The notes beneath the pieces were generated by a model, which was not told where the DNA came from, did not search any database, and saw only the letters and a program-made list of their open reading frames with translations. A stretch of DNA of 38,450 nt from the IMG/VR virus record IMGVR_UViG_3300013119_000454, positions 1-38,450 of that record. One strand, written 5' to 3'. Of this stretch, positions 6,958 through 35,861 are shown piece after piece. A program made the translations under genes and the position numbers. Source of the stretch: a virus. Within the stretch, counting starts at the first letter, position 1. Each line of letters opens with the position of its first letter.

Positions 6958-7079
6958 GACTTTTTTCCTTTTTCTTTTTCGTCAAGATAATACAATAGAG
7001 GTTTCAATAAAATTTCCAGAGCAAGCGGTACTATTATTACCAAGATAAATATTACTATTACCCATTCTGCTATACCCAT
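6954..7079 (-). CDS. Tiny single-pass membrane protein, 41 aa
   Basis: The ATG at 7079 is preceded by AAGGAG (7091-7086), and the stop overlaps the epimerase start (ATGA). Residues 5-25 form one hydrophobic helix (EWVIVIFILVIIVPLALEIL) followed by a charged tail (DEKEKGKKS). No family is recognised. The strong ribosome site and exact stop-start overlap argue that it is translated. It may anchor a glycosyltransferase or epimerase at the membrane. Confidence 0.72.
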   Translation of the reverse strand: MGIAEWVIVIFILVIIVPLALEILLKPLLYYLDEKEKGKKS

Positions 7080-7093
7080 AATTTCTCTCCTTG

Positions 7094-7219
7094 TTATCCC
7101 TTGTTTTTTCTGTGTTTCCGTACCATATCATTAATACAAATATCAATAATGGGGAATACAAAGCCAACGATCAATACTATGACCGCTATGATCGCAAAGA
7201 ATATGATAAACAATTTCAT
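7094..7219 (-). CDS. Tiny single-pass membrane protein, 41 aa
   Basis: The ATG at 7219 follows AGGAGG by five bases and overlaps the stop of the glycosyltransferase upstream (ATGA). Residues 3-25 are a hydrophobic helix (LFIIFFAIIAVIVLIVGFVF) with a basic tail (VRKHRKNKG). A longer open frame to 7345 exists, but only this internal start has a ribosome site. It has the same length and topology as the next gene (6954-7079), yet the sequences are not clearly alike. Role unknown. Confidence 0.72.
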   Translation of the reverse strand: MKLFIIFFAIIAVIVLIVGFVFPIIDICINDMVRKHRKNKG

Positions 7220-7914
7220 ATCTTCCTCCTGAAAAATCCTCTTACAAAATTGAACCCATACACTATTATACCAGAAATCCAACCAAGAAGCGCCAGCCTT
7301 ATCAAATGCCCCCTGTGTTTCCCATAAGTAGCTACTTGTTTCCAAAAAGGTTTGAACAGGGGCCGGCGCTGATGATACACGATAATGTCAGGACTATAAA
7401 ATATGCTTCCATTTATCTCCCGGCAGAATAAACTATCCTCACCTGTAAGATAGGGCTTGAACTTGGGGGCCTTATCTTTCCATACAATCAAATTGAAAGA
7501 AGGGAACTCCGCAACCACCCTGGGGCTCTTGGGAGCTACGCGATACGAATAAGGCAACCATCTATAAACCAAATCGGCAGCCTTCTCCCATAAAGATGAA
7601 TCTGGGGGAAGTATGCCAGGGCCACAGACCGCCGCATGATACTGCAAATGAATTAATGCCTTGTCTAGCCAATCCTCCTGTGGGTAAGCATCTGAATCTA
7701 TAAAGGCAAGAATATTTCCTGTAGCTCTTTCCATAGCCCAGTTTCTTTTTGTGGCAGGGAAGCCAGGGCAGGCTTTATCGTCAACAACAATTATTTCTTT
7801 ATTGTTAGGTAAATACTCACAATTTTTTATACAATACCATGATTGGCCATCTATTTCTTTGCAAGGTATAATTATAGAAACTTTATTTTTAAGCTCTCTA
7901 GGAATGTTCGCCAT
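7216..7914 (-). CDS. Family 2 glycosyltransferase
   Basis: A GT-A fold transferase of 232 residues that adds a sugar from a nucleotide donor at the cytosolic membrane face. It opens with the strand VSIIIPCKE (12-20), has VDDKACPGFPATKRN (44-58) for nucleotide binding, the metal-binding FIDSDAYP (71-78, DxD) and an acidic GEDSLFC block near residue 155. The tail (LIRLALLGWISGIIVYGF) is a likely membrane-associating helix. AAGGAG precedes the ATG. Donor and acceptor cannot be inferred. Confidence 0.88.
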   Translation of the reverse strand: MANIPRELKNKVSIIIPCKEIDGQSWYCIKNCEYLPNNKEIIVVDDKACPGFPATKRNWAMERATGNILAFIDSDAYPQEDWLDKALIHLQYHAAVCGPGILPPDSSLWEKAADLVYRWLPYSYRVAPKSPRVVAEFPSFNLIVWKDKAPKFKPYLTGEDSLFCREINGSIFYSPDIIVYHQRRPLFKPFWKQVATYGKHRGHLIRLALLGWISGIIVYGFNFVRGFFRRKI

Positions 7915-8432
7915 ATAGCTCTCCTTGACATTGATTTTGTTATCTCTGCTTCAACAGGAACTTCTACAATTTTAAGTTCTCTCCTGTGAGCGGCTGCAAG
8001 TATTTCCACATCAAATAAAAATCCATCAGTTTCCCATGTTCTTAAAGCTGAACTTCTAAAAAGTTTAATGCCTGTTTGAGTATCACATGGAAGGCCGAAC
8101 ATAAGTCGAATATATATGCGCGATAGATAGGTAAGGATTTTTCTTTGCAAGGGCGCATATGTCATTCTTTTTGAGCCTACCACCACATCAAAGTCCTCTA
8201 AAAATGGGAGCAATCTTTTTAGCATACGAGGCTCTATGTCTCCATCTCCGTCAAGAAATGCAATATATTTGCCTCTAGCATAATGTAGGGCTTCTCTCAT
8301 AGCCCAGCCCTTGCCTTTGCCATCCCGATCGACTGCAATAATAATCTGATTGGCAGGCAGAACTCGCTCTATTTCAGCTATCAACTCTTGAATATTATCC
8401 TCATTATGGTTTGGTATTAGGATAGACAGCAT
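7872..8432 (-). CDS. Polyprenyl-phosphate sugar synthase-like glycosyltransferase (DPM1-like, GT2)
   Basis: A soluble GT2 of 186 residues resembling dolichol-phosphate mannose synthase, which loads a sugar onto a polyprenyl phosphate. Key blocks are the initial LSILIPNHNE, the metal site LDGDGDIEP (about 60-68 from the chosen start), VGSKR, CDTQTGIKLFR (about 116-126) and GFLFDVEILAAA. It lacks the C-terminal membrane domain of some homologues. The ATG at 8432 has AAAGGAG seven bases upstream. A TTG two codons earlier sits too close to that site. It pairs logically with the GT-C protein at 3629-5002, which would use such a lipid donor. Confidence 0.85.
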   Translation of the reverse strand: MLSILIPNHNEDNIQELIAEIERVLPANQIIIAVDRDGKGKGWAMREALHYARGKYIAFLDGDGDIEPRMLKRLLPFLEDFDVVVGSKRMTYAPLQRKILTYLSRIYIRLMFGLPCDTQTGIKLFRSSALRTWETDGFLFDVEILAAAHRRELKIVEVPVEAEITKSMSRRAIWRTFLESLKIKFL

Positions 8433-9207
8433 TGACAAACTCCTTTATAAGTTTTCTTTGACGCGCTTGTATTGCTATTAAATCGAGCCCTGCTATGAGA
8501 GCATATGCCTCAAGGAAGGCCTCTCCCATATAAGGGAATTCGTTTTCAGTAAGAATGATTAATTGCTTGTAGTTTTTTACTTCTATCCCTGTTGAGCCAT
8601 ACACTATTTTTTTGATTTCGGTGCTTTTGTAGCTTGCTGGCATCTCTTTCCAAATAACGGCTTCAAACATAAAAGGCATAAGCATTGCCCTCATGGTTCG
8701 CAATCCCAATGCTATTTTTTCCTGAAAGGTAAGCTTGATATTACAATCCCGAATTGTTTTTGCAGATAAGCAACTTCGGTCTATGCTTCTATAAGCACGA
8801 GCCATCTTGTTTTCAACAACAGTATATTCTTCACAAAATAATTTATGGCCTTGCGATACCATTTTATAGGTTTGATAAGTCTTCCCGGAATTAGGAAGCC
8901 CTACTATCAGAGTATTGCCTACACATGAGGCATGAAGCAATAGTTTATCTTGCAACGCTAGTTTTAGGAGAGTAATTTCCCGTAGTAATATATCCAGATT
9001 AATCCATCCTCTTAATATAAATGGAAGCTTTAAGAACATGGGCGTAACTTCAACCTTGCTTAGGCCCTGGCTTATCAATAACTGGACAGGGAAAAGATAT
9101 TTGCCCTCAAAGTATAGACCGTCTATTTCAGGGTCATACAGAAATTCGCCTATCTTCTTACATTTATCTTTATTGATACGTATTTTCGAGACGACCTTGT
9201 AATCCAT
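8404..9207 (-). CDS. HPr-kinase/PEPCK-like P-loop protein
   Basis: A 267-residue protein whose centre resembles the HprK-type kinases found in polysaccharide loci: LLHASCVGNTLIVGLPNSGKT (from about residue 90, P-loop GLPNSGKT at 103-110), then a helix and FCEEYTVV, where most homologues have an Asp pair. The N-terminal 85 residues form a separate domain, as in those proteins. True HprK phosphorylates a Ser on HPr. No HPr is encoded here, so the substrate may be a sugar or a host protein. An AAGGAG site precedes the ATG. It overlaps genes on both sides. Confidence 0.7.
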   Translation of the reverse strand: MDYKVVSKIRINKDKCKKIGEFLYDPEIDGLYFEGKYLFPVQLLISQGLSKVEVTPMFLKLPFILRGWINLDILLREITLLKLALQDKLLLHASCVGNTLIVGLPNSGKTYQTYKMVSQGHKLFCEEYTVVENKMARAYRSIDRSCLSAKTIRDCNIKLTFQEKIALGLRTMRAMLMPFMFEAVIWKEMPASYKSTEIKKIVYGSTGIEVKNYKQLIILTENEFPYMGEAFLEAYALIAGLDLIAIQARQRKLIKEFVNAVYPNTKP

Positions 9208-10006
9208 CGTATGCTCCTTTCAAAAAGTGATAAATCATTATAGGTTTTCTACGATATAAAAGGGATAAGCAATAAGATATAACAAAAATTGGCAGGAACG
9301 CAATCACATATATGGAGAACCTGATGGGCGACAGGTGTTTCCTTTGAAACAATACGCGATTGCGTCCCATCATATACGCATTTAAAGGCCTGCGAAAATC
9401 TGGTATTCTTGAATAGGTAATTGAATCATGTATAACTTGTGCAAAAGGTGTATAAGCAATTTGGTAGCCCTTTCGCTTTACTCGCAAGCACAAATCAGCT
9501 TCATCTAAGTCTATTGGAAAATGTGTTTCATCGAAGCCTCCGACATCTAAGAACAAATCTCTGCGTATCATAAAAGCGTTTGCAGCTTCATCAACTACAT
9601 AACATTGTGGGGAAAGCAAGTATTTATTCTGTATATCTATAATATTCCAATTAGTATAGCTACCAATAGTAAATCCTGATAGTAAATGTCTTACCGATCC
9701 ACCATCGGCTATTTTTAAAATATCCTTTGCATAACACGCAACCATTCCTACTATCCCAATATTGTAGTTATTTAGAATAAGCATCATGCCGAAAAAAGAA
9801 TGACCTATAAGGTAATTGTCATCATCAATAAACAAAAGATATTCGCCACTTGCTTGGGCTGCTCCTTTATTCCTTTTTGATGCTAATGGCAGATGTTCAT
9901 CGGCAACAACAATAATTTCACAATCCGACGGAAGTGAACGTATTAATCTATCAAGTAAATGCTCTCGGCCTTTTATTGTAGGTATGATAACACTTACCTT
10001 TTCCAT
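9170..10006 (-). CDS. Family 2 glycosyltransferase with C-terminal membrane helix
   Basis: A rhamnosyltransferase-type GT2 of 278 residues. The first strand is VSVIIPTIKGRE, the metal site is FIDDDNY (DDD at 61-63), and the acceptor-side acidic block is IDLDEADLCLRVKRKGY. A hydrophobic stretch near residues 225-250 (FSIYVIAFLPIFVISYCLSLLY) should hold it to the membrane. I chose the ATG at 10006. A frame-extending TTG at 10036 has no ribosome site, whereas AGGA lies eight bases before this ATG. Sugar specificity unknown. Confidence 0.87.
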   Translation of the reverse strand: MEKVSVIIPTIKGREHLLDRLIRSLPSDCEIIVVADEHLPLASKRNKGAAQASGEYLLFIDDDNYLIGHSFFGMMLILNNYNIGIVGMVACYAKDILKIADGGSVRHLLSGFTIGSYTNWNIIDIQNKYLLSPQCYVVDEAANAFMIRRDLFLDVGGFDETHFPIDLDEADLCLRVKRKGYQIAYTPFAQVIHDSITYSRIPDFRRPLNAYMMGRNRVLFQRKHLSPIRFSIYVIAFLPIFVISYCLSLLYRRKPIMIYHFLKGAYDGLQGRLENTYQ

Positions 10007-10761
10007 ATCACATATCCTAGCATTAAGAAGAACCAAATTATCATCTTTGGATGAAACCTACTATGCCGCTTATGAAAACGTAACCAGTTTTTAATACGGC
10101 CAAAATCCTTGACTCTTTCAGAATAATGCGAACCCCTCTGTGGCATATGATAGAGAAAGGCGTGAGGATTATATTCAAGTTTATAGCCGAGTTTCTTGAC
10201 CTTAAAAACTACATCATCATCATACCATTCTGCCACTCCATCGAAGGCCAGGTCGAAGCCGCCCACCTGTTTTATTAAATCCGTTCGCATGGCCCAGTTT
10301 GTGCCTTCCAAATGGTCTATTTGATACTCCTTATTTCGATCGATGTGTTCGCTAAAATTAGAGCCATAAGACACAGAACCACATTTATATATTTTTGCCG
10401 GGGCAAAGGGGTTATTATCGAAAAGCCATCTTAAAAGCCAATTAGGATTTTCTGCTATTCGAATGCTATCTCTGTTTGCCCTATGAATAAAAGAAATAAA
10501 TGTCGGGCCCGTAGAACCAGCAACCTTTGGGTCTCCAAACGGGATAATCAATTCTTGTAACCAATCGGGGGGAAGCTTTACATCATCATCAATACGCACA
10601 AATATATTACCTCTAGCTCTTTTAAGAGCATTATTCATAGCATTAACGATACCTTTTTCTGTGGCTAGTATAATCTCAAAGTCCCGAAAGGTTTGTTTTC
10701 TCAAATCATATTCCAGCTTTTTGGATAATGGCTTAGATGTTAAGACGACAATAGATACCAT
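9994..10761 (-). CDS. Family 2 glycosyltransferase
   Basis: A GT-A transferase of 255 residues. It starts directly with the nucleotide-binding strand (MVSIVVLTSKPL), has a metal site VRIDDDVKLP (DDD at 58-60) and the late block EWYDDDVVFKVKKLGY (about 183-198), typical of rhamnosyl- and related transferases. The C-terminal 20 residues are hydrophobic (MIIWFFLMLGYVIW). GGAG lies five bases before the ATG. It overlaps the GT4 gene upstream by 22 bases and the next GT2 by 13. Donor and acceptor unknown. Confidence 0.87.
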   Translation of the reverse strand: MVSIVVLTSKPLSKKLEYDLRKQTFRDFEIILATEKGIVNAMNNALKRARGNIFVRIDDDVKLPPDWLQELIIPFGDPKVAGSTGPTFISFIHRANRDSIRIAENPNWLLRWLFDNNPFAPAKIYKCGSVSYGSNFSEHIDRNKEYQIDHLEGTNWAMRTDLIKQVGGFDLAFDGVAEWYDDDVVFKVKKLGYKLEYNPHAFLYHMPQRGSHYSERVKDFGRIKNWLRFHKRHSRFHPKMIIWFFLMLGYVIWKR

Positions 10762-11747
10762 ATTTGCTCCGCAATCTTTTCTGCGTCGTGATGTTCTAAA
10801 ACATATTTTCTCATTATTTCGCCTTCTTCTAGCATATCTAATAATTCATATATATATTCTATTAAATCATCCGCATCAATAATTTGCCACGGATAATCTC
10901 CATATACTTTGCGTCTCGTAACAATACAAGGTTTGCCCATTATGCTATATTGAAGAAATGGAGAAGTTACCACGTATTCGTTGCCTGGATTATTGCTCCG
11001 GAGGGCTACTCCTATATCGCAATCATTTATATAACTATACATATAGGAGTAAGGTTTCCAGCCAAAAAACTTTACATTAAGACGATTTGCCTTTTTCATA
11101 AGTCGTTTTTTATCGGGGCCATCTCCTATAATACGAAACTCTATTTCTGGTAAATGATTTGCCGCATCTAAAAGCATATCTACATTTTTATTTCGAGTAA
11201 GCAATCCATGAAACATGACTATTTTTTTGCTTTTATCTTTCAACATATTTGCTGGAAGGAAATCTACAGGATCAATAGGGTCTAATGCCACAAATGTTTT
11301 AGGGATTTTTGTTTTAAACTTTATTTCATCGCACATGACTTCTGATATGGCTATGATACGATCAATAATATTCCATTCTTTTATCTCAAGCCAATGCAAT
11401 ACCTTATATAGCCATCCGCTTGTATAATACATAAGATGAAAATCTCCCATGCGCTTGACGACTTTAGAATTGGGTGATACCATCTTTACGAGACCTGAAT
11501 AAAAAGGAAATGAATCATCACAATATATAACATCATAACCTCGACCTATCACAAGTAAGGGGGCATAGATTATCCAGGCTAGGCTCTTTACGAACTTGAG
11601 CCAATCATTGAGCCTGTTAAACTTGCGATAGGTCAAGAGTTTTACACCGGGCCGCATGAGATACTTGATAGCGGCGTTTGTAGTTCTTATTTGTTCGTAT
11701 GGGTATCTATGAAGGATTGCTATTTTTTTATTTTTATTTTTTTCCAT
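10740..11747 (-). CDS. Family 4-type (GT-B) glycosyltransferase
   Basis: A 335-residue GT-B transferase. The N-terminal Rossmann domain starts KIAILHRYPYEQ. The C-terminal donor domain carries IVMFHGLLTRNKNVDMLLDA (about 182-201), FRIIGDGPDKKRL and an EYVVTSPFLQYSIMGKPCI block, where the usual E-x7-E pair that grips the sugar is only partly kept. This is the only GT-B enzyme in the operon; the others are GT2 or GT-C. It probably adds one sugar to a growing lipid-linked glycan. The ribosome site is weak, but the gene overlaps the preceding 63-codon gene by 28 bases. Confidence 0.85.
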   Translation of the reverse strand: MEKNKNKKIAILHRYPYEQIRTTNAAIKYLMRPGVKLLTYRKFNRLNDWLKFVKSLAWIIYAPLLVIGRGYDVIYCDDSFPFYSGLVKMVSPNSKVVKRMGDFHLMYYTSGWLYKVLHWLEIKEWNIIDRIIAISEVMCDEIKFKTKIPKTFVALDPIDPVDFLPANMLKDKSKKIVMFHGLLTRNKNVDMLLDAANHLPEIEFRIIGDGPDKKRLMKKANRLNVKFFGWKPYSYMYSYINDCDIGVALRSNNPGNEYVVTSPFLQYSIMGKPCIVTRRKVYGDYPWQIIDADDLIEYIYELLDMLEEGEIMRKYVLEHHDAEKIAEQIWYLLSS

Positions 11748-11911
11748 CTGCGATCATATCCTTTATAAACCATTGGTGCATATTTTGGATTTGCTATAAA
11801 TATTTTTCCTTCTTCATAATTATCACCCATTGTAATCCAATCTGTCTCAGCATCAATAAATCTGGTGGGTATTTTACTAAATGCTTCTAACAACAACTTT
11901 CTAATTGCCAT
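11720..11911 (-). CDS. Hypothetical protein, 63 aa
   Basis: I do not recognise this gene. The ATG at 11911 follows the methyltransferase stop by one base and has an AAAGG site seven bases upstream. Longer in-frame starts lack one. The product begins MAIRKLLLEAFSKIPTRF, has a middle rich in acidic and aromatic residues (DAETDWITMGDNYEEG) and a very basic end (RRWKKIKIKK). It has no membrane segment. It lies between a methyltransferase and a glycosyltransferase and overlaps the latter, so it is part of the glycan operon. Confidence 0.6.
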   Translation of the reverse strand: MAIRKLLLEAFSKIPTRFIDAETDWITMGDNYEEGKIFIANPKYAPMVYKGYDRRWKKIKIKK

Positions 11912-11912
11912 A

Positions 11913-12587
11913 TTATAACCTTTCCAGTTTATAAAACACTTGCCATGTCTTTGTTTCCCTTTTATCGACGATTTTAAATTGCTTGCCACAAAATCTCTTT
12001 ATGTCAGCTTCGGAATAGACGTACATAACGTGTTGCTCTACTACCTCATAATATTTATCTGAAATATATATAAGAAGTTGGATTTTATTATCCCTGTGTA
12101 AATCAGGCGTTATTACTCTAGTAACGCCACCTTTACGCTTCACAGTTACTTTAAATCCATCCCGATCGGCTTTCTTTTTATCCCAGACATCAAATATAAA
12201 ATGGCCACCCTTTTTTAATGGTATGCGTTTCCACCAATTATGTTGAGGAATATAATTAATGACATCAAAGAGGGCTGTTGCACAATCAAAGCGAGGGTGT
12301 AGTGGGTATTTGTCTCTATAGAGTTCGGGTGAAAATAAATCCATAATATCGGTACATATAATCCTATCTTTATATTTTTTCGAATTATCTATCATGTCTT
12401 TTGATTCTTCCATTCCTATAATTAAAGTATGGCTTGGAAAATATTTCCAATAGTTAGCAGTCCCACATCCAATGTCTAGTATAGACTTAGGTTTCTCCGC
12501 CCATTTACAAACAAAGTTTATTTCTTTTTTATAGGGCTTGTCAGAATTAAGAAGATTATAGTATTTCGCGTAAGTTTCTGCAAACAT
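11913..12587 (-). CDS. Class I SAM-dependent methyltransferase
   Basis: A 224-residue methyltransferase with SAM motif I at ILDIGCGTANYW (about 36-47), an acidic strand end IIGMEES and motif-like DCATALFDVINYIPQ (about 102-116). The fold resembles small-molecule methyltransferases (Methyltransf_25 type) rather than DNA enzymes; there is no NPPY or DPPY. Its position just downstream of the aminotransferase suggests N- or O-methylation of an amino sugar. This gene and its neighbours appear more AT-rich than the structural genes. An AGGGA site precedes the ATG, and it overlaps the aminotransferase by 32 bases. Confidence 0.82.
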   Translation of the reverse strand: MFAETYAKYYNLLNSDKPYKKEINFVCKWAEKPKSILDIGCGTANYWKYFPSHTLIIGMEESKDMIDNSKKYKDRIICTDIMDLFSPELYRDKYPLHPRFDCATALFDVINYIPQHNWWKRIPLKKGGHFIFDVWDKKKADRDGFKVTVKRKGGVTRVITPDLHRDNKIQLLIYISDKYYEVVEQHVMYVYSEADIKRFCGKQFKIVDKRETKTWQVFYKLERL

Positions 12588-13569
12588 AGATTATATCCCT
12601 TTCTGTTAATGTTAATCCTGATGGTAAATAAAAAGCGTGATCCCACATTTCATTTGAATATGGAAATAAATTATGTGGATAGGGCTTATCCATAATAATC
12701 CTATTTGATGTCAAAAGAAATGGTTGCCTATGATAAGGGAAAAAATATCGTCTACATTCTATATCACGATTATATAATTTTGATACCATCATTCCTGCAT
12801 CTTTCGGGGTCTTAATAAGATACATCCAAGGAACATCCATACCAAACATAGGGATTGCATTATCGGGCAAATTATTAACATACCAACTAGCCATAAGCCT
12901 TTTCTTTTCGACAAATTTATCTATCTGTTCAAGTTGTGCGAGTGCAACTGCAGCTTGTAAATTTGACATACGAAAATTGTATCCATAATCATCATGTATA
13001 AATCTTTGACCTGCATGACAAAGATTTCTATATTTTTTACATCTTTCATATATCTCTTTTTTGTTGGTTGTAATAATGCCACCCTCTCCAGATGTAATAA
13101 TTTTGTTTGCATATAAGGAGTAACAAGCCACTTCTTGAGGTTGAAAAGGTTTCCAATATTGGGAACAATCATCAATGGCTCTAAAAGCTATGGCTTCTGT
13201 AAAAGTACCGAATAAATGACATCGCATTACATTTTCTTCTGTTATTTCCATAAAAGGATCGGTAGTTTCGTAGGGCGATGGTCGCAAACCTGCTCGCATT
13301 GCAGCAAAAAAACAACTTATAATCGTATTATTTGGTACAGCAATTATGCTTTTGAGTTTTAAATCCATGCCATATAGACCAGTTTCAAGAGCTGCCGTAC
13401 CATTGCAGACCGCTATTGCATATTTCGTGCCGGCCCACTTGGCAAAAGCCTCCTCAAAGAGCCGAACAAAGCGACCCTGACTGGAAACCTCACCTTCGTC
13501 TATTGCTTGACATAGATATGCCTTCTCATTGCCCCGCAATAGGGGCTCTGATACTTTTAAAAGGCCCAT
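12556..13569 (-). CDS. DegT/DnrJ/EryC1-family sugar aminotransferase
   Basis: A PLP enzyme of 337 residues that converts a keto-sugar nucleotide to an amino sugar, as perosamine and related synthases do. The PLP lysine is Lys156 in CYSLYANKIITSGEGG. The cofactor-binding Asp is in AIDDCSQY (133-138). CNGTAALE (55-62) binds phosphate. YGYNFRMSNLQAAVALAQL (about 195-213) is a strong family block. Its keto substrate would need a 4,6-dehydratase, which is not evident here unless the upstream GalE-like enzyme supplies it. GGAGG precedes the ATG. It overlaps both neighbours. Confidence 0.92.
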   Translation of the reverse strand: MGLLKVSEPLLRGNEKAYLCQAIDEGEVSSQGRFVRLFEEAFAKWAGTKYAIAVCNGTAALETGLYGMDLKLKSIIAVPNNTIISCFFAAMRAGLRPSPYETTDPFMEITEENVMRCHLFGTFTEAIAFRAIDDCSQYWKPFQPQEVACYSLYANKIITSGEGGIITTNKKEIYERCKKYRNLCHAGQRFIHDDYGYNFRMSNLQAAVALAQLEQIDKFVEKKRLMASWYVNNLPDNAIPMFGMDVPWMYLIKTPKDAGMMVSKLYNRDIECRRYFFPYHRQPFLLTSNRIIMDKPYPHNLFPYSNEMWDHAFYLPSGLTLTERDIIYVCRNLREIL

Positions 13570-14498
13570 GTGGTCTCCTCCCTATCATAATACGCAATCG
13601 TGCGTCTCAGGGCATCCTCAAGTGAAATCTGGGGTCTAGCCTCTATGGTTGAGTAGATTTTGGTGTTGTCAGACTGTAAATGCCATACTTCCCACCTGCG
13701 CTTACGGGTATCATCTTCCTCAACAAAAATCTCTTTTCGCATAAGTATGCCCATCAAGCGGGCCAAATCATATATCTTAATCCCTTCCTCTGAGCCGAGA
13801 TTATAGACTTCGCCATACTTACCTTTTTCAAGCAATTCAACGGCCATTCTCACGGCATCCCTAGCATACATAAAATCTCGGAAGGAGTTATTACCAAGCC
13901 ATACTAGGTCATCTTTGCAAAGTTGTTTATAGATTTCCGGGATAACATAGGGGTGTAGAACATCGCGCTCGCCTACACAGTTGAATTGCCTAAGAGCTAT
14001 GGCCGGGCAACACGACTCTTTAAAACGTGTCTGCACCATTGTATCAATGGCAAGTTTTGAAGCTCCATATGTGGAATGAGGATGGGCCGGCCATTGTTCA
14101 TCAATTCTACCACTAGCATCTCCATAAATCTCAGCAGAGGATACCTGCAATATGCCTTTAACTCCACACTCCTGGGCCGCGTTCATTACCATTAAGGCCC
14201 CGCGCGCATTTATGTCAAAGGTATGGAGAGGCCGCTCATAGGATACCGGCACATAGGGGATCGCTGCATAATTAAAGACATAGTCTATATCATACTGAGT
14301 AAATATTTTCCTCAATTCCGCTTCCGAGTGAGTAATGTCGCACCAAAGAAACCTAGCCTCTGGGTTTATGAACTCCTTGCGACCGGCAATAAGATTATCC
14401 AATACTAGGACATTGTTTTTGCACTCTATAAGATAGTCCACTAAATGCGACCCCAAAAATCCTGCACCGCCCACGACTGCTACATTTTGCTTTTTCAT
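13557..14498 (-). CDS. GalE-like NAD-dependent sugar epimerase/dehydratase
   Basis: An extended short-chain dehydrogenase of 313 residues acting on a nucleotide sugar. It has the NAD loop GGAGFLG (10-16), the catalytic pair Y144xxxK148 (HSTYGASKLA), VSSAEIYGD (119-127) and YARDAVRMA (about 210-218). Because it lies before an aminotransferase it may make a 4-keto sugar, but 4-epimerase activity is equally possible; sequence alone does not decide. AGGAGG lies close to the ATG. It is the first gene of the continuous overlapping glycan operon. Confidence 0.9.
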   Translation of the reverse strand: MKKQNVAVVGGAGFLGSHLVDYLIECKNNVLVLDNLIAGRKEFINPEARFLWCDITHSEAELRKIFTQYDIDYVFNYAAIPYVPVSYERPLHTFDINARGALMVMNAAQECGVKGILQVSSAEIYGDASGRIDEQWPAHPHSTYGASKLAIDTMVQTRFKESCCPAIALRQFNCVGERDVLHPYVIPEIYKQLCKDDLVWLGNNSFRDFMYARDAVRMAVELLEKGKYGEVYNLGSEEGIKIYDLARLMGILMRKEIFVEEDDTRKRRWEVWHLQSDNTKIYSTIEARPQISLEDALRRTIAYYDREETTWAF

Positions 14499-14864: not shown

Positions 14865-15051
14865 TTTTCTTTCCTTTTATTTCTTCCGCTTTCATCTTAT
14901 CCCAAATCATTTGTACAGCTTGTGCGTGCTGAGTAAATATCTTATCGTGTTCTCTGACTTTCTTCAAAACATAAAACATACTCCCAGCGCTCATACCGAT
15001 AGTCAGCGCAATAACAAAACCTGCCACAATTCCTTTGACTGTGTTATTCAT
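14848..15051 (-). CDS. Small membrane protein with basic tail, 67 aa
   Basis: The N-terminus has one membrane helix (VKGIVAGFVIALTIGMSAGSMFYVL, split here around residues 5-29), followed by a helical, basic cytosolic or periplasmic tail. It follows directly on the 3D-domain cell-wall gene with a four-base overlap, so a lysis role such as holin or pinholin is possible. One-helix topology could equally suit a spanin-like component. No family recognised. Confidence 0.6.
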   Translation of the reverse strand: MNNTVKGIVAGFVIALTIGMSAGSMFYVLKKVREHDKIFTQHAQAVQMIWDKMKAEEIKGKKSGRKR

Positions 15052-15446
15052 TTTCTCCTCACTTTCATTTGTAATTTCCCAAGTCTAAAACATCTTTCGA
15101 CTCCCCCCATCCATTTGGGTATGAAGATGTCAATTTTATTACCTTTGATCGCACTTCCTCGATCCCGGCACACAAAAGTGCCATTTTCAGGCTTAGGTAA
15201 TTGAAGCCCCTCGTAATCAATAATAAACTCTGTGCCAAACGGTATAGCTGGATCGCAAGCAATATCACCATACCTAAGAGTACCACCCATAGCGTTAAGA
15301 TCACCCCATTTACCATTTCCACCCTCCTCTCCAGTTGAGTAAAAGGTTATTGTATAAGTTCCAATTCTTGATTCTGCAGCCACTACATAGCCTAGCATAA
15401 ATATTATAAGCACGATTATCACTTTTTCGGTCAAGGTTATACTCAT
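15048..15446 (-). CDS. Exported 3D-domain cell-wall enzyme (probable endolysin)
   Basis: A 132-residue protein with an N-terminal signal or anchor helix (VIIVLIIFMLGYVVAAES; likely cleavage after VAA, residue 24). It is followed by a 3D domain, the double-psi beta-barrel of lytic transglycosylases that cut peptidoglycan glycan chains. The three diagnostic Asp residues are visible in IACDPAIPFGTEF (Asp65), FVCRDRGSAIKGN (Asp95) and KIDIFIP (Asp106). It is the only clear wall-degrading gene in the genome, so it probably serves lysis. Sec export would remove the need for a classic holin. GGAG lies eight bases before the ATG. Confidence 0.82.
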   Translation of the reverse strand: MSITLTEKVIIVLIIFMLGYVVAAESRIGTYTITFYSTGEEGGNGKWGDLNAMGGTLRYGDIACDPAIPFGTEFIIDYEGLQLPKPENGTFVCRDRGSAIKGNKIDIFIPKWMGGVERCFRLGKLQMKVRRK

Positions 15447-20365: not shown

Positions 20366-20611
20366 TTACCCCTTTCCGGCACCACCATTCTTTTTTATAA
20401 AATCTTTAAGGTCATCAAAACGCTCATCGACGTGTTTCCTTTCTTGCTTGTATATCTCCCGGATTCCATTCATCGCTGTATGGCAATGTTTCGTATTTAC
20501 AAACTTATCATCAAGGCCGTTTATTCTATCATGGAGATGTCTCCGGCCCTTATTGTCTAGGATTTCTTTGACTATCAATCCTATGAACAAAACACTCAAA
20601 CCTGCTATCAT
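20366..20611 (-). CDS. Membrane-anchored coiled-coil protein, 81 aa
   Basis: An N-terminal membrane helix (MIAGLSVLFIGLIVKEIL) is followed by a charged region likely to form a coiled coil (RRHLHDRINGLDDKF, ERKHVDERFDDLKDFI) and a Gly-rich tail. This topology resembles an inner-membrane spanin (Rz-like) or holin-associated protein. The upstream gene encodes a small signal-peptide protein, which could be a partner. The two overlap by four bases. Confidence 0.55.
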   Translation of the reverse strand: MIAGLSVLFIGLIVKEILDNKGRRHLHDRINGLDDKFVNTKHCHTAMNGIREIYKQERKHVDERFDDLKDFIKKNGGAGKG

Positions 20612-20979
20612 TGGCTGACATCCTCATTTGTGGCTTGTAATCTTAAATCTTTAGCGACGGGTTTCAGTACAGCCGGTAATGCCTGATACCATTCTTTTTG
20701 GCCTACTAAAGTTTCTAAATTGAAAGGTGTTGCTTGTGGTGTACCGAGATTTAATACTGACCTTATATACAATTCTCCGCCTTCTGCACTAATAGCCGTA
20801 CCATCAAAGTAAAATTGTATTGGATACCATTCATTGCCTACGCGGGCGTTGATTATATTACCAGAATTAACATCCTTTAACCCCACCCAGCTTGTATTAA
20901 TTTCAGCACAAGCTATGCTTGCAATTAATGCCAATAATACAATAAAAATTACCGAACAAATCAACTGACTTTTTCTCAT
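20608..20979 (-). CDS. Exported protein with Sec signal peptide, 123 aa
   Basis: I chose the ATG at 20979 because AGGAG lies six bases before it. The resulting N-terminus is a textbook signal peptide: MRKSQ, hydrophobic LICSVIFIVLLALIASIA, then an ACA-E cleavage site near residue 25. The mature part (about 98 residues) is beta-rich with several Gly and Asn turns and no recognised domain. The preceding fibre-like gene also begins with a signal peptide, so the two may be exported together. Confidence 0.72.
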   Translation of the reverse strand: MRKSQLICSVIFIVLLALIASIACAEINTSWVGLKDVNSGNIINARVGNEWYPIQFYFDGTAISAEGGELYIRSVLNLGTPQATPFNLETLVGQKEWYQALPAVLKPVAKDLRLQATNEDVSQ

Positions 20980-20992
20980 AATTTTCTCCTTT

Positions 20993-22720
20993 TTAAGGCA
21001 CATCGTCATTATATGTACCATCCGCCGCTATATGCGCTACTTGCGTCCCATCTATCCAAAAAGTGAGATGCGTATTTGCTGCATCAAACTTCATACCACT
21101 AAATCCACCAGCGTCCCCCACATCTATTCCTGTTTCACTTTTAATAGTTCCCGTAGTCGTAAGCGTTCCTGTACTAGTAACATCATTATCGAATGTATAT
21201 TTATCAAAGTTAGTAAAATGTATCTCATCATTAGCCGTTACTTCCTCGGAGTTGATTATCATATCGGCAGTGTCGAAAGAGATAGATACATCTTGACTAG
21301 CACCCCAGAAAAACTTAGCACTATCTATTGCTTGAAGTACATTACCCTCTGCATACATCCGAAAGATAGTTCTGGTAGAACCTGCTCCATCGTTAGCTCC
21401 AAAGATAATATCTCTAGCAAGGTTCCCTCTGGATTGAAAGGCTAGTCCGCCGCTTGACTCTATACCGCCATCGGTGCTAAATAAACCATGTTTGGTAGTT
21501 GTAAACCAAGAAGTTATTTTACCTAAATACATGGGATTTCCTGACGCTTGTCCAAAACCAGCATCACCATAGTAAATTATGTCATCACCTGTATCGTAGA
21601 TTTGATAGATTTTTCCCGCTGGCCCCCAAAACTCTAAATCGTTACCCACACCGTGTTTATCACATCTCCAGTAATATTCTAAATCTGATGGGGATGTAAT
21701 AAACCGAAGGAATTTTTGATAATTTGAAGTTGCTTCTATTCTTACCGCACCTCCATCTCCTATATAGAAATCACCGCCAGGACTACAGTTCAAATCTGTG
21801 CCGTCAAATTCAAAATAGGCATCACTTGAACCACCAAAGTAAAGTTTGGAGCTATTAGCCAATAACTTTAGGTCTGTTCCATCAAAAGTAAACGCAGCAG
21901 AATAATCAAAGTCATCTCCTGCCGCATTAGAATAAGGTATTTGATTATCTGTTCCTACTGTAAGATGCACTATCGCTGGATTAAGGGTTGTATAGTTTAA
22001 AGTGTCGCAGGTTATGGTACCTGTAGTGGTAAGGCTATTATCCACTAAATCTACTGGCATATCTACTTTAAATCCAAGAATATTAGTATTCTCTCTTTCG
22101 AGCCAAAAATAGTCGTCAGTGTCTTTGACTGTCCATTCAATATTTACTTCATTAGCACCGTTTGTGATATAACCAGCTTGTGTTAATGAGGGATTTTCTC
22201 CATCGCTGGCATATTGAAATAGTTTTACATTACCAGCTGCCGGCCCTTGTAATCTTACATCATTTCCTGCAGCGTGTATAGCTATTGCCCCTGTTCCGAA
22301 TGTTTGAATTTCCATATCGCTATTATCTGATGTATGAATATCTGCATGTCCCCATTTATCAATACGAAGCATAAGATAGCGGTCATGTTCTGCTGCTTTT
22401 CTATGAACATAAATAGCTCTCCCGTCAGTATCATTATCTATATCAGTATCCTCAAAAAAGGTAACATCCCCTTGCGCATCGGGCATTATCTTGAGGTCGC
22501 CGAGGGAATTGAATAATCCGGGTAAGTCTAGTTCAGCAGTAAGAGGGTCATTGGAACAGTCGAGCTTGAGATAGCGCGCATCATTCTCAGTAATATCGCT
22601 AGCAGACATACCAATTGTATCGATATTCCCGGTCTCAGGATTTATGACATAATCCTCGGCGGCAAAGATTGAATTTGATAAAAATATAACCAATAATAGG
22701 CTTAAAAGGATTTTTCTCAT
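20993..22720 (-). CDS. Fibre-like protein with Sec signal peptide
   Basis: A 575-residue protein. The first 21 residues are a clear signal peptide (MRKILLSLLLVIFLSNSIFA). The rest resembles phage fibre sequence: a NDARYLKLDCSNDPLTAEL block (about 45-63), then repeated short beta segments such as TGTITCDTLNY, FDGTDLKLL, FDGTDLNCS and STGTLTTTGTIKSETG, ending in a FWIDGTQVAHIAADGTY block typical of fibre or trimerisation ends. Tail fibres are normally cytoplasmic, so export is odd. It may coat the host surface or act as an exported decoy. No peptidase or lyase domain seen. It is Ser/Thr-rich. Confidence 0.7.
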   Translation of the reverse strand: MRKILLSLLLVIFLSNSIFAAEDYVINPETGNIDTIGMSASDITENDARYLKLDCSNDPLTAELDLPGLFNSLGDLKIMPDAQGDVTFFEDTDIDNDTDGRAIYVHRKAAEHDRYLMLRIDKWGHADIHTSDNSDMEIQTFGTGAIAIHAAGNDVRLQGPAAGNVKLFQYASDGENPSLTQAGYITNGANEVNIEWTVKDTDDYFWLERENTNILGFKVDMPVDLVDNSLTTTGTITCDTLNYTTLNPAIVHLTVGTDNQIPYSNAAGDDFDYSAAFTFDGTDLKLLANSSKLYFGGSSDAYFEFDGTDLNCSPGGDFYIGDGGAVRIEATSNYQKFLRFITSPSDLEYYWRCDKHGVGNDLEFWGPAGKIYQIYDTGDDIIYYGDAGFGQASGNPMYLGKITSWFTTTKHGLFSTDGGIESSGGLAFQSRGNLARDIIFGANDGAGSTRTIFRMYAEGNVLQAIDSAKFFWGASQDVSISFDTADMIINSEEVTANDEIHFTNFDKYTFDNDVTSTGTLTTTGTIKSETGIDVGDAGGFSGMKFDAANTHLTFWIDGTQVAHIAADGTYNDDVP

Positions 22721-23318: not shown

Positions 23319-24509
23319 TTATTTAAATGCTAGATAATTGATAGAAAGTGTACCCGTGGGAGAAGCCGTTTTGACCCAGGAGATTGTAAATCCATCAGCA
23401 TCCCAAGAGCTTACACTTCCGGCATATATGTTAGCGCCGTCTTCGTCATAAACAATTCCACCATTAGTAAGGTCTATATTGTAGACCGTAGTTGAATTGC
23501 CTCTTTTAGCAATAGCAGATTGTCTGTTCCCATGAGTGCTATCGCTTGACATTCCCCAAGATAATTCAGCAGAACCTTGTTTGACCCCTTGGAAGATTAT
23601 TACTGTCGGTGTAAAACCCAATCCTGTTATAGCTTGGGTACTAGAAGTCAAAGATACATCTCTTGTAAATAGACCTACATACATATCGGTTGAGAGTGCT
23701 TTTACAAGATTGGTAATCGTGGTCTTTGATATTGTGTTGCTATTCTCGCTGTCCGATAGCAATAACTCGTCTGCAGCAACAGGGGTCGTTTTGCTACCTA
23801 ATCCATTTATGTCAAGGGCTGCCGTTAATTGTGCTATTGTTGATTTTTTCTGTTTATTACTATCTGCTGAATCATTTATGGCTACAGAATCGGCAGATAC
23901 GGGCGCGGTTTTTGCCGTCAAGATATTTATAGATGATGTAGACGGGGTTACATATTTTACACCGTTAGTTCCGGTTACCATATCCGCTACACTTGCTATC
24001 TCAAGATCAGTTGCCGGTGTAAAGGTTTTATTTTCTAGGGCAGTACCGGCAGAATCCCACCCTAAAACAGTATCAGCTACAGGAACGGGTAATGTAGCAC
24101 TCACACCTGTAACTGAAATAGGAAGTATCAAAGTCCTGTCTGTGTCTTCGGCCTGCTCCTGAGATACGAGAGTACGTATATCAAGATCATTCTCTACTGT
24201 ATCAGCAGGGAACTGATTATAGTCATCATAGTCAGAGGCTTGAGTATTTGTAGTTTCTCGGTAGACTGTAGCTGTCCCAGAACCTGTACCTGCTGGATCA
24301 ACTAGAGTAACCACGCCACCTACACCATCTGAGTTCACCACTACAGTATAATCAGTCGTGTAGGTTAGCTCAGTATCCACGTTGTCGGCTGTAACAGTAA
24401 CCTTTATGTCCGTAGGAGCGCTCACTAGGGCCCGAAAGGTAAAGGTAAGCGTAGATGTTGTGCCATCTAATGTAAATTGCTGTTTTCTTGCGGTAGTTGC
24501 AACTGTCAT
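23319..24509 (-). CDS. Tail fibre protein
   Basis: A 396-residue protein. The N-terminal 130 residues match the particle-attachment domain of podovirus fibres: FTLDGTTSTLTFTF, DYTVVVNSDGVGG, an ATVYRETTNTQASDYDDYNQ region, and a helix FPADTVENDLDIRTLV ending in DRTLILP. The middle has repeated TAPVSADSVAINDS/TTPVAADELLLSDS units (about 195-255). The C-terminal 110 residues (TGLGFTPTVIIFQGVKQG onward, rich in G/S/N) form the probable receptor-binding part. It lies after the ejection protein genes as in T7-like phages. Confidence 0.85.
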   Translation of the reverse strand: MTVATTARKQQFTLDGTTSTLTFTFRALVSAPTDIKVTVTADNVDTELTYTTDYTVVVNSDGVGGVVTLVDPAGTGSGTATVYRETTNTQASDYDDYNQFPADTVENDLDIRTLVSQEQAEDTDRTLILPISVTGVSATLPVPVADTVLGWDSAGTALENKTFTPATDLEIASVADMVTGTNGVKYVTPSTSSINILTAKTAPVSADSVAINDSADSNKQKKSTIAQLTAALDINGLGSKTTPVAADELLLSDSENSNTISKTTITNLVKALSTDMYVGLFTRDVSLTSSTQAITGLGFTPTVIIFQGVKQGSAELSWGMSSDSTHGNRQSAIAKRGNSTTVYNIDLTNGGIVYDEDGANIYAGSVSSWDADGFTISWVKTASPTGTLSINYLAFK

Positions 24510-24522
24510 AATAACCCCCTTG

Positions 24523-27500
24523 TTAAATAGGTGATAATCCTTTTTTCTTTCCTTCTTTCCCTGCTATGTATTCATAAAATCTGATGAATGTATTTATGGG
24601 CGCGGCCGTTATCGGTTCTAAGACTGATGCCGAAGCTTTTAAATAATCTCCTGCGGTAACATCTTTCTTTGTAAGTTTACTTAATCCTGTTTCTAGATCA
24701 TCTAAGAATGGTGTGCTAAAAATCTTCCAGGCCTGTTGACCGCTTATTTTTCTCATAGTAAATCTTACTATATCACTTATCACCGGAATGGCATTGACAG
24801 GATTAACTACTAGCTGGATCATGATTTCATCGAGTATCTTTTCAACAAGCTCATCTTCGCCACGTCCACCTATTTTCTTGACAGCCTCCTTAACCAAGAG
24901 ACCTGACATTGAATAAAGTATTGGCTGTATAACGGCATATATAGCCATCACTTTTGAAAATTGACCTAAGGATATATCTCCATTATGATAACTCATTATG
25001 GCATCGCCCATCTTTCTGAAATACTGATTGGCTGTATTCTTAAATGCTAAAAATAGCCGCGCAAAAGGATTTCTGCTATTTTGGAATTGAGATAAGCTTG
25101 AAGAAAGCCCGGATTGCTGGGCCTTAATAGTTGCTTTCTCAAATGTTACCATAGCCTCTTTTATACTTTTGCCTTTTTTCAATTCAGATTGGACTAAGGG
25201 ATACCCTCCATAGATAATAGCTGTTATATCCCCGGCTCTCGCAAATGTACTTAAAAACTTATGCCAGCTACCCCAATGGGCGCTTATTTTTTCGGCCCCG
25301 CTAATAGCATCTTTTATGGCTTCTGTATATCCTCTGTTAAATCTTGCTTCTAAGAATGGAGCATTATTCCACATAAAATTGAATGTCTCTTTAGGGCTTG
25401 TAATGCCTTTAAGGAAATCTCCAGTCCATTCGGCAGCGCTCATATCTTCTATATAGTTGCCGGTAGACATCAACTGTCTAACAAGTGTACTTGGATTCAA
25501 AGCAATCTTAGCTGTTACCCAATTATTTATAGCTGTTCTGAACCATCCGCTAACAGCGTCAATCTTTGTTATATGAGCATTGAGAGACAAATTATCAATC
25601 TGATTTCTCAATACCTTATAGACATCTTCTCCGAACTTATCCTCAATAGAATGCTTGACTTTTCTATCAGTAAATAATCTCTTGAGTGTTTCATGGGGTC
25701 TACTTAAATTGCTAACGTGTTCTGCCTGAGCTATATGCCTTTGCGTTTTATACCAAGCATCACTTGGCTTAGGTATCACTTTACCCTTAGCTCTTTCTTT
25801 CATGGCCGAAGGGGTCTCTCCTTGTATTCTTATATCATCAAACACATTCTCTTTATATTCTGAGGTAGCAGGCCAATAATTTTCTACAAAACCTAAATCT
25901 CGGCCAGTAATCTCAATACTTCTCTGATTAAGGATTGATCTATATTCCTGGACAGTTTCTTGCAAGTAATCAGCAAGCGCAATATCATTTCCGTTAAGTT
26001 CTCCCATGAGATTTTGGACTTGGGCTTCCCCGAAGGTATCATAGTATCTTTGCTTGACATTATCATTCTTAAGAGAATTATATATATCTATGAGTTCAAG
26101 CTTACTGACTTCTGTAACTAAGCCATCAAAATCTACAAGCTTATATTTAGCTTTTGCCATAGTCTCAAAAATTGACATCACATTCTTTTCAACATATATC
26201 CTAGAGGCCTCATTAGCAATTTGCTTTGTCTTAAAATATATGGCCGTATCTCTGTTGTTTTCAGCTATTTCAGGATCGTACTTCTCAGCCATAGTCTTTC
26301 CAAAGGTAGAATTGAGCATGGAGTATATATTGGAGAAACCTTTACGATACACATTGCCGATCTTTGTTTTTATAGTCTTCTTATTACCCTTAATCCTACC
26401 TATTGCTTGCAAAGCTTCATTGGCTCTTTCTTGGCGTTCAAGGCCTTTGATAAAATCTTCCTCGGTCTTAGCCTGTTCGCCTATTTTTTTCATAGTCTGT
26501 ATATCTTTAAAGACTTGTCTAAATAACTCAGATGAGGCGGCTTTTCCATTAGCCTTTAAAGATAAAAATCTTTTTCTAATAAGCTCTATCTCTGTTCCAG
26601 TTTCAGGATAAGTGTCTAGTTCAGCCTGTGCCTTAGCTTTATTAAATCTCGAAAACTCTCTCAAATCCTCAAATAACTTATTTGTTTCATAATCATATTT
26701 GCCTATACGCTTCTGACCCACTTTTCTAGGTTTGGCAGCTTTGAGTTCTTTTTTTATCTTGGCTCCGAGCTTGGTCTTTTCAGCAGCAACTTCAAGTCTA
26801 GCCATGCGAGTTACTATATCAGGCATAGCTTTTTGTAATTGCTCCTGGGTTTGAATATTTTTGATAGTCTTGATAAACTTAGCCTTGTCTGCAGGGGCTA
26901 ATTCGGATGAATCAATAAGTCTTACAATATCTCCCTGTAAATCCTTTATTTCTTCTTTGGCAATCCTGCGACCTTCTCGTATTCCGCGCCTTATATGCTG
27001 TATCTTCTCTTTCAGGATGGTAGTTTCTTTTTTGGATATGATTTTAGGCTTACCTGTTTTTATTATATCTTTTAAAGATTTCTCTTGCGCTTCCCAATCT
27101 CTGAGATAATCAGATAGTTCTCTAAGATTTTTAAAAGTAATACCCAATCCGGCTTGATTAACTTCTTCTAAGGCCTCATCGGGGAATATTGCACCTTTTT
27201 TGGTAACATATCCTTTAGGGAAGTTTTTAAGTTCTTCAGCAAGAAAGCCTTTTTCATGCGGTTTAATGCGGCCTTTTAATAAATCCTTGATTTTGCGGCC
27301 TTCCTGTAAGGCCTCCGATGCTCTTTCGACCTTTTCAAGGCGAGTTTCCATCGCTTCTATCTCTTTATCAAGAGCAGTCCTACCTATAGTATCTGGCTCA
27401 ATAACTTCGGGTTTTATGGCTTCTTTTGCCACCTCAGGGGCTATTATAGGAGCTTTTTCGGCTTCAGGTATACCTTCCTCTACCTCTGGGGCTATTGCCT

Positions 27501-28551
27501 CCACAGCAGGCTCTGTAGGGGCTTCTCGGACTGCTTCTACGATTTCGTTGATTAAATCTACATCTTCTTGCGTTTTAACCAGTTTTTTGGCCCTTGCAGT
27601 AGCTGCTACGTCCACAACGCCTCCTGGGCCAGCAATAACGGATAAACCGGCCGCAGATCGCGCGGCAGTTTCAATTAAACGGGTTCGCCATTCCTCAGGC
27701 GTAGGAGTTGCATCAGGTTTTTCATCTATCATGCCACCTATAGTTTCAGCAACAAGGCTTGTAACTTCCTGCAATTCTTCTTCTGCGACTTCTCCGCCTA
27801 CCGTCCTAAGGTATCTACCTAAGGCTAGGGATATAGCCTTTTTGCCTGTATCTGTCCTTATAACCTTAGAAAAGGCCTGTTTAAAAGGCTTGGAGAGGAG
27901 CTTAAACTGTGCAAGTTCAATTACACCTATAAGCGTACCGCTTGCCAAAGATAAAGGCCTGGCAGTATCCTCACTTACACCTTTTTCAACCATGTCAAGG
28001 TATAAGTCTCCGCCTTCTCTGTCTAGAATATTATTTATGACTCCGTAAGAATATCCTGTCTTCATCCCGATCCCAAAAGCGGCAGGCACAGTAATAAACT
28101 CCTCCGGGACTAGGGCTTGGGGCCCAGCTTGGCCTGCTGCCGCCGTGATTGCCGCGAATCCACCACCTATTGTAAGAGCATATTTCAGACCCTCTTTTTG
28201 AGAACTGAGCATATAAGGTAATAGTTGCGCCGCCTCTCCTACTACATATTTAAACGGAGCTTCTCTAAAGGCTAAATCTTCATATGGCCCAGCTTTTTTT
28301 AACCAATAGTCTCTTTCCTTATTTCCTTTACTAAGGGCCTCGGTAGTATCCATCCTGCCCCACATAGCCTCTCGACCATAAGTTGAGCGCACAGCATTAG
28401 CTTTATCTATGGTGAGTTTATATTTTATATATTGAGGTAAAGTAGGATCGTTATTGGCAGGCAGGCTTCTCCCAAACAACTCCTCAGTAGAGAAAGACTT
28501 TTGTTTAGATTGTCCTAGTAGTTCTTCTGTAGTGATTATTTTTTCCGCCAT
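24523..28551 (-). CDS. Giant internal (ejection) protein, gp16-like
   Basis: A 1,342-residue protein: the largest gene, in the place of T7 gp16, third of the ejection proteins that form a channel across the host envelope. The N-terminus has two copies of a short motif (TTEELLGQS, STEELFGRS). About 115-170 is Gly/Ala-rich and hydrophobic, 335-390 is Pro/Glu/Ala-rich, about 390-760 is long charged coiled coil, and about 1,215-1,240 is hydrophobic (IYAVIQPILYSMSGLLV). I see no lysozyme or transglycosylase domain, which T7 gp16 has at its start. Starts 16 bases inside the preceding gene. Confidence 0.8.
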   Translation of the reverse strand: MAEKIITTEELLGQSKQKSFSTEELFGRSLPANNDPTLPQYIKYKLTIDKANAVRSTYGREAMWGRMDTTEALSKGNKERDYWLKKAGPYEDLAFREAPFKYVVGEAAQLLPYMLSSQKEGLKYALTIGGGFAAITAAAGQAGPQALVPEEFITVPAAFGIGMKTGYSYGVINNILDREGGDLYLDMVEKGVSEDTARPLSLASGTLIGVIELAQFKLLSKPFKQAFSKVIRTDTGKKAISLALGRYLRTVGGEVAEEELQEVTSLVAETIGGMIDEKPDATPTPEEWRTRLIETAARSAAGLSVIAGPGGVVDVAATARAKKLVKTQEDVDLINEIVEAVREAPTEPAVEAIAPEVEEGIPEAEKAPIIAPEVAKEAIKPEVIEPDTIGRTALDKEIEAMETRLEKVERASEALQEGRKIKDLLKGRIKPHEKGFLAEELKNFPKGYVTKKGAIFPDEALEEVNQAGLGITFKNLRELSDYLRDWEAQEKSLKDIIKTGKPKIISKKETTILKEKIQHIRRGIREGRRIAKEEIKDLQGDIVRLIDSSELAPADKAKFIKTIKNIQTQEQLQKAMPDIVTRMARLEVAAEKTKLGAKIKKELKAAKPRKVGQKRIGKYDYETNKLFEDLREFSRFNKAKAQAELDTYPETGTEIELIRKRFLSLKANGKAASSELFRQVFKDIQTMKKIGEQAKTEEDFIKGLERQERANEALQAIGRIKGNKKTIKTKIGNVYRKGFSNIYSMLNSTFGKTMAEKYDPEIAENNRDTAIYFKTKQIANEASRIYVEKNVMSIFETMAKAKYKLVDFDGLVTEVSKLELIDIYNSLKNDNVKQRYYDTFGEAQVQNLMGELNGNDIALADYLQETVQEYRSILNQRSIEITGRDLGFVENYWPATSEYKENVFDDIRIQGETPSAMKERAKGKVIPKPSDAWYKTQRHIAQAEHVSNLSRPHETLKRLFTDRKVKHSIEDKFGEDVYKVLRNQIDNLSLNAHITKIDAVSGWFRTAINNWVTAKIALNPSTLVRQLMSTGNYIEDMSAAEWTGDFLKGITSPKETFNFMWNNAPFLEARFNRGYTEAIKDAISGAEKISAHWGSWHKFLSTFARAGDITAIIYGGYPLVQSELKKGKSIKEAMVTFEKATIKAQQSGLSSSLSQFQNSRNPFARLFLAFKNTANQYFRKMGDAIMSYHNGDISLGQFSKVMAIYAVIQPILYSMSGLLVKEAVKKIGGRGEDELVEKILDEIMIQLVVNPVNAIPVISDIVRFTMRKISGQQAWKIFSTPFLDDLETGLSKLTKKDVTAGDYLKASASVLEPITAAPINTFIRFYEYIAGKEGKKKGLSPI

Positions 28552-34910: not shown

Positions 34911-35861
34911 TTATCCTTTGGCTTTGTTTACTACTGCTTCGAGCGAATTGACATAGTCAACTGCTCGCTGGTGCTCTGCATCTGTTGCATTAGGATTCAG
35001 ATATGGATGATTCGGGTCTCTCCGTATTTTGTCTAGCTCCTCCTGAGCCTGATCCGCGGAGAGCGAGAATCTCTGGTGCTTGAAATCACCTATCTTGTTC
35101 TCAGCAAATTGTGCTCCGACCTTTGCTAAGAATCGTACGCCTCTAGGGTCTTTGGCTAGAGTAGCTGTAAGGAACTCCTCTGTCTCCTTATCAGCCGAAA
35201 ACTTATTTATAACAAGCTGGCCGAGCTGCACATTGGAGTCATATGTATCGCCCCATTCACCTCTCATAGCATTAACAACCTCTGTCATCTTAGCCTCATG
35301 GGCCTTGACAGCATTGCTATAAGCCTCTTTTGTCATATTCGTATAGGCTTCCCATAATCCTTTGGCCTGATTTGGGGTAAGTTTAAACGCATGAATAGTC
35401 TCGGCAAACTTGGCCTTATCGAATGTCATGCCTTTCATGCTATCAGGGACTTCCGCGTCTGCCAGGCCATAGCCTTCTGCCGCGTCAGGTACTCCCATAG
35501 CCTTTGAAAACCTTGCCCATCCCTCAGTGTCTTCTGCGTTCTTGGGTATGGGTACTTTCTCATGGCCCAAGAGTTTCTCTAGGGACGCATAACCTACTGC
35601 AGCCTTGTTCAATCCTTCAACTGAATTGTCATATCCTTGAAAGAGTGGACTATTTGCTACATCAGAACTTAATTTATCTTTCCAGGCAAATGGTTCTGGT
35701 GCACCTGCACCCCCGGCACCGCCTTGCCCTCCGGCTCCTTCACTGCCAGTGCCAGTAGCTCCTGCACCTGCGCCGCCAGCGCCTGCATCACCTTCAGCAA
35801 AACACATTCCGAATGGATTTGACTGCCCGAACAATCGGATCAAACTACCCATTAAAAACAT
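34911..35861 (-). CDS. Capsid scaffold protein
   Basis: A 316-residue protein with the usual features of an assembly scaffold: a Gly/Ala linker (about 25-55), acidic N-terminal half, and a helical, charged C-terminal region (DQAQEELDKIRRDPNHPYLN, about 280-299, then EHQRAVDYVNSLE). The tail would bind the coat. It is not packaged in mature heads of related phages. AAGGAG five bases before the ATG. It is between portal-side genes and coat as in T7-like phages. Confidence 0.85.
   Translation of the reverse strand: MFLMGSLIRLFGQSNPFGMCFAEGDAGAGGAGAGATGTGSEGAGGQGGAGGAGAPEPFAWKDKLSSDVANSPLFQGYDNSVEGLNKAAVGYASLEKLLGHEKVPIPKNAEDTEGWARFSKAMGVPDAAEGYGLADAEVPDSMKGMTFDKAKFAETIHAFKLTPNQAKGLWEAYTNMTKEAYSNAVKAHEAKMTEVVNAMRGEWGDTYDSNVQLGQLVINKFSADKETEEFLTATLAKDPRGVRFLAKVGAQFAENKIGDFKHQRFSLSADQAQEELDKIRRDPNHPYLNPNATDAEHQRAVDYVNSLEAVVNKAKG

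Follow-up and report, generated by a model that had tools for sequence, protein, structure and literature searches.

The virus record analysed here over its full 38,450 bases (the window), which has a T7-like gene order on the minus strand, encodes a 575-aa fibre-like protein that begins with a Sec signal peptide (SP). Fibre-like phage proteins with an SP are a real and recurrent type that has apparently not been described before; the open-access literature searched yielded no account of them, the one related report found there dealing with rumen Bacteroides phages whose SP proteins are left unspecified (PMC5723332). Export of the 575-aa protein appears well supported by its sequence, and its function we infer to be receptor masking. 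Tentatively, at somewhat less than even confidence, we read it as a late, Sec-exported fibre body that would act in the host envelope and mask receptors against re-adsorption.

Two adjacent genes and their signal peptides

The minus-strand gene order runs from portal, capsid, nozzle and internal proteins through the gp16-like protein, the gp17-type fibre and two small genes to the 575-aa and 123-aa genes. Except for the fibre matched to phrog_1640, these names come from gene order and relatives and not from family matches. The features of this region are as follows.

20366–20611, minus strand: 81-aa coiled-coil protein with one transmembrane segment; L005 has a 77-aa lookalike downstream of its SP-less fibre
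20608–20979, minus strand: 123-aa protein with a Sec SP (cut between ACA and EIN), supported by a Shine-Dalgarno sequence at 20979 and the SP call; no relative found
20993–22720, minus strand: 575-aa fibre-like protein with an N-terminal Sec SP, supported by its open reading frame, the SP call with shuffle control, and module homology
22661–22720, minus strand: SP of the 575-aa protein, aa 1–20, MRKILLSLLLVIFLSNSIFA, predicted cut before AEDYV; heuristic call, with a diverged SP and conserved mature start in L008/L010
22717–23025, minus strand: 102-aa protein directly upstream of the 575-aa gene; a 96-aa lookalike occupies the equivalent place in L008/L010
23319–24509, minus strand: separate T7 gp17-type fibre without SP, N-domain matching the phrog_1640 tail protein (E 1.8e-14)
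24523–28551, minus strand: gp16-like internal virion protein, 1342 aa, the query for syntenic relatives

The two adjacent reading frames reported at 20608–22720 in a preliminary description are both present on the minus strand, and their label as late genes agrees with the gene order, in which both come after the gp16-like and gp17-N-like genes. The start given for the second gene (21021) lies too far upstream; the string aaaaaggagaaaattATG supports a Shine-Dalgarno-backed start 42 nt inside that frame, at 20979, which is probably the true one. The 575-aa gene starts in an ATGA overlap with the stop of the upstream gene, preceded by caggtggaac. The gp17-type fibre at 23319–24509 is presumed to be the virion fibre of this phage. 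A 9.5-kb contig, L006 (IMGVR_UViG_3300009314_000430), encodes a gp16-like protein 100% identical to that of the window, and the N-terminus of its SP-bearing fibre is identical too.

The 575-aa protein opens with MRKILLSLLLVIFLSNSIFA followed by AEDYV (predicted cut between IFA and AED), so that the peptide start expected after cleavage is AEDYVINPETGN, and the 123-aa protein opens with MRKSQLICSVIFIVLLALIASIACA followed by EINTS. According to a home-made heuristic (not SignalP), both N-termini have the n-h-c anatomy of Sec signals, in that they start basic, continue into a hydrophobic core and end in a cut site of A-X-A type, and the mature part of neither protein was called as containing a transmembrane segment. 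Whole-protein shuffles passed this heuristic in 17 of 5000 cases (0.3%) for the 575-aa protein and in 121 of 5000 (2.4%) for the 123-aa protein; the SP of the former is beyond chance.

Comparative evidence for the SP is better than the shuffle-based heuristic. In L008/L010, an ortholog in the equivalent position has an SP, MKKILINVLLILMAATAFA, that is identical to that of the window at only 8 of 19 aligned residues with n-h-c order kept, while the mature start is identical at 29 of 37 positions, with DxVINPETGNxDTIG...DITENDARYLK conserved. A second ortholog pair, L028 and L060, likewise keeps the n-h-c order (SP 10/21 identical, mature start 73/89), and for both pairs pN lies clearly below pS, in the SP as well as in the mature start. 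Such a diverging SP before a conserved mature start reads as the way in which real signal peptides evolve. For the 123-aa protein it is anatomy that supports the SP, since no relative exists for comparison (none in IMG/VR, and no homolog in family searches). It lacks the lipobox [LVI][ASTVI][GAS]C, its SIAC having Ser at -3; lipobox-like starts are present in proteins adjoining the SP-bearing genes of L068 and L062. The clear n-h-c signal peptides of the preliminary description are thus confirmed by heuristic prediction and shuffles and, for the larger gene, by conservation of the SP in orthologs, and its cleavage sites near IFA-AED and ACA-EIN agree with ours to within one residue.

Fibre modules with and without a signal peptide

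Module homology shows the mature 575-aa protein to be pieced together from phage-fibre modules, a mosaic with the following parts.

22550–22720, minus strand: SP and N-terminal module, aa 1–57, common only to SP-bearing L008/L010 and L006 (the last being the same phage)
22007–22510, minus strand: module of aa 71–238, over the matched part 50% identical to the SP-bearing protein of L002 and 51% to the SP-less one of L003
21152–21400, minus strand: module of about aa 441–523, with 48–58% identity to the SP-less fibres of L004 and L005; contains the second copy of a DAYFEFDGTD-type repeat

The repeat motif (GGSSDAYFEFDGTD / GASQDVSISFDTAD) also occurs in L003, L004 and L005. A fibre with beta repeats had been proposed for this protein; its fibre-like nature is upheld by module homology and a beta-rich composition, and the repeats are modest, amounting to one motif in two copies. 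AlphaFold models of both proteins have a mean pLDDT of 45, a low confidence too weak for fold assignment. Searches of Pfam, PHROGs (including phrog_1640, the family of the nearby gp17-type fibre) and the PDB with the 575-aa protein gave zero matches, as did comparison with annotated phage records, and a scan of the genome collection with the middle module yielded no relative. No known virion-docking N-terminal domain was found in Pfam or PHROGs, the N-terminus being filled by the SP and the module of aa 21–57. A match of the N-terminal module to L021 was rejected, since the protein hit there is nuclease-like, unrelated, and has an SP of its own.

Modules of the relatives lead to annotated phage proteins. 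For SP-bearing L002 these are the tail fibres of cyanophages (Synechococcus phage ACG-2014f), the 573-aa protein of L013 matches the Pelagibacter phage Kolga tail fiber, and the C-terminus of L008 matches EBPR siphovirus 2 gp74 (annotated as hypothetical) at 43% identity; gp74, the one of these three matched proteins whose N-terminus was inspected, has no SP. Assembly of tail fibres is assumed to be cytoplasmic, and the expectation that ordinary fibres lack signal peptides was borne out. The SP is absent from the module-sharing fibres of L003, L004, L005 and L085–L090 and from those of the annotated records ESV2, ctQRb9, PfAn1, ctNMl277, ctOsX528, ppBjS10J-1 and ct76p945; the exception is L002, from a different type of phage, whose module-sharing fibre does have an SP. 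In L028/L060 one module comes directly after the SP, at about aa 29; its counterparts in L085–L090 start at aa 62, 71, 174, 217 and 411, where they are preceded by other N-terminal regions, suggesting that the SP occupies the place of a different, possibly docking, sequence.

Relatives were collected through the gp16-like protein, and SP-bearing fibre-like genes are found in most of the related podovirus contigs. SP-bearing, mostly fibre-like genes follow the gp16-like gene in L008/L010, L007, L013, L026, L028, L060 and L068, and none follow it in L009, L011, L012 and L030; they also occur in L061, L013 and L073, there behind the capsid gene region. Within the first 12 contigs, SPs were called in 10 of 51 ORFs up to 6 kb downstream of gp16 versus 2 of 59 upstream (p = 0.011). 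In a wider contig set, 21 of 327 ORFs of at least 140 aa were SP-like, mostly in the post-gp16 and post-capsid slots, a tally in which one ORF is counted twice, one is a nozzle and one is apparently a false call. The predicted exported protein of L068 has a Laminin_G_3 lectin-type domain (E 3.6e-12), which agrees with glycan binding.

Several other genes of the relatives deserve mention in their own right. L060:7268–9340 encodes three more predicted exported proteins in tandem, one with TPR repeats. L007:2319–5492 encodes a homolog of the tail nozzle that contains a Laminin_G_3 insert and is extended at the N-terminus by 25 SP-like residues with SD support; as an SP on a core virion protein the extension was set aside and kept out of the evidence, because this start is missing from 13 relatives with identities of up to 85%. 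In L009 the fibre gene is followed by an ORF resembling a reverse transcriptase (7507–8532), which suggests, as a sequence impression, a diversity-generating retroelement.

Phage contigs with fibre-like SP genes belong to two MAGs of one small bacterial phylum. L028 lies in one of these, the 1.7-Mb G009, together with further such contigs (L060, L061 and L062), and the gp16-like protein occurs in 2 of the 5 genomes searched from that phylum versus 0 of the 380 other genomes searched around it. Since binning of phage contigs can err, the phylum is a lead to the host of the window phage rather than an assignment.

Proposed destination and role of the predicted exported protein

The signal peptides are real, the mature part is fibre-like, and ordinary phages differ in lacking an SP on such fibres; together these points make export a better reading than cytoplasmic virion assembly, and in this the preliminary interpretation stands. 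Because an SP takes the place of the part that would fix a fibre to the virion, the destination is probably the host envelope and not virion assembly in the cytoplasm, and the protein is probably non-virion. In the mechanism that we propose, ordinary phage-fibre modules fused to a Sec SP in place of a virion-docking N-terminus would be made together with the late genes, exported through SecYEG and cut by signal peptidase. The fibre body would then act in the envelope of a putatively double-membraned host, that is, in the periplasm and in lysis debris, where its most likely role would be to occupy the receptor glycans or proteins targeted by the phage's own gp17-type fibre, reducing re-adsorption to the infected cell and debris. 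The 123-aa protein may be an envelope protein exported alongside. In a double-membraned host a Sec signal alone delivers only to the periplasm, so surface receptors of the infected cell would be reachable only with an extra export step or lysis; no outer-membrane export signal was seen. This limit also applies to the preliminary suggestion that the protein may coat the infected cell or block further phages.

A precedent for an exported phage protein that blocks a receptor is T5 Llp, a periplasmic superinfection-exclusion lipoprotein that stops re-adsorption to infected cells and debris (PMC9586334). Llp is likewise phage-encoded, exported and periplasmic, with the purpose proposed here for the 575-aa protein, and no sequence relation is expected. 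However, it is a small lipoprotein that jams FhuA and is without fibre modules, and superinfection-exclusion proteins of its kind are made early. Secreted endolysins and T4 RI, which has a cleavable signal peptide (PMC8385771), also use the host Sec system, but they are lysis enzymes or regulators and not fibres. The window itself encodes a candidate exported lysis enzyme at 15048–15446 (minus strand), a 3D-domain protein (PF06725, E 4e-10) with an SP-like N-terminus.

Against the proposed mechanism stand the SP-bearing genes that sit within the virion gene cluster (L061, L013, L073) and the SP-like N-terminus of the L007 nozzle gene, even though its 13 relatives are without it. The position of SP-bearing genes in virion gene slots, some of them shortly after the capsid gene, keeps alive the main rival, in which the protein would be secreted, fold in the periplasm and, at lysis or later, be added to virions as a decoration or an additional fibre. 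The mature modules are those of virion fibres, and L013 and L007 have short ORFs with hardly anything besides an SP and a brief fibre-like motif; yet no docking domain was recognised, a gp17-type fibre is already present in the phage, and the open-access literature searched offered no precedent, and we consider this rival unlikely. A further rival takes the N-terminus for a membrane anchor that is not cleaved, or for a hydrophobic start arisen by accident, on an ordinary, cytoplasmically assembled fibre; this would be quite improbable, given the good cleavage motifs, the n-h-c order and the recurrence across many unrelated N-termini. Hydrophobic N-termini do occur on other morphogenesis proteins, namely the L007 nozzle and the scaffold-type protein at 34911–35861 with its equivalents, and the window protein has an internal Met38, but this start is not conserved, since L008 has Gln in its place. 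The scaffold-type protein (minus strand) has an SD-backed N-terminus, MFLMGSLIRLFGQSNPFGMCFAEG, that is not an SP by the heuristic, and the scaffold-position ORFs of L042 (the contig of L013) and L043 (that of L011) have comparable hydrophobic starts before Gly/Ala/Pro/Glu-rich stretches.

A secreted adhesin or envelope protein of a lysogen or infected host, with a role in surface conversion, biofilms or nutrition instead of superinfection, would fit phage contigs that encode diverse predicted exported proteins in arrays, among them one with TPR repeats and one with a lectin domain, and a contig that connects an array of this kind with a chromosome-like gene, NnrD, so named from its sequence. 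The genes are placed among late structural genes, however, and ORF inspection of the window revealed no recognised integrase, which makes this reading rather unlikely. That the protein is an acceptor of the phage's own glycosylation, the part of the preliminary interpretation that finds no support, is extremely improbable. Glycosyltransferase-like genes can be read at about 7216–11747, but Ser and Thr are unenriched, making up 15.9% of the mature 575-aa protein versus 19.2% of the nozzle and 26.3% of the gp17-type fibre of the same phage, and N-X-S/T sequons are at chance level (4 observed versus 5.3 expected by shuffling). The gene block at 3629–14498 (minus strand), read by sequence impression as glycosyltransferases, nucleotide-sugar epimerases, an aminotransferase and a radical-SAM protein, probably serves surface-glycan modification.

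For the uncultured podovirus group as a whole, we propose with similar reserve that fibre-like sets may be systematically exported via Sec, with the SP replacing the virion anchor, for receptor masking or for extracytoplasmic decoration of virions. A recurrent SP version of fibre bodies would, if true, imply that phages put receptor-binding modules to a second use away from the virion, which would be relevant to superinfection exclusion, decoys and late virion decoration and would bear on the prediction of host range from tail fibre annotations.
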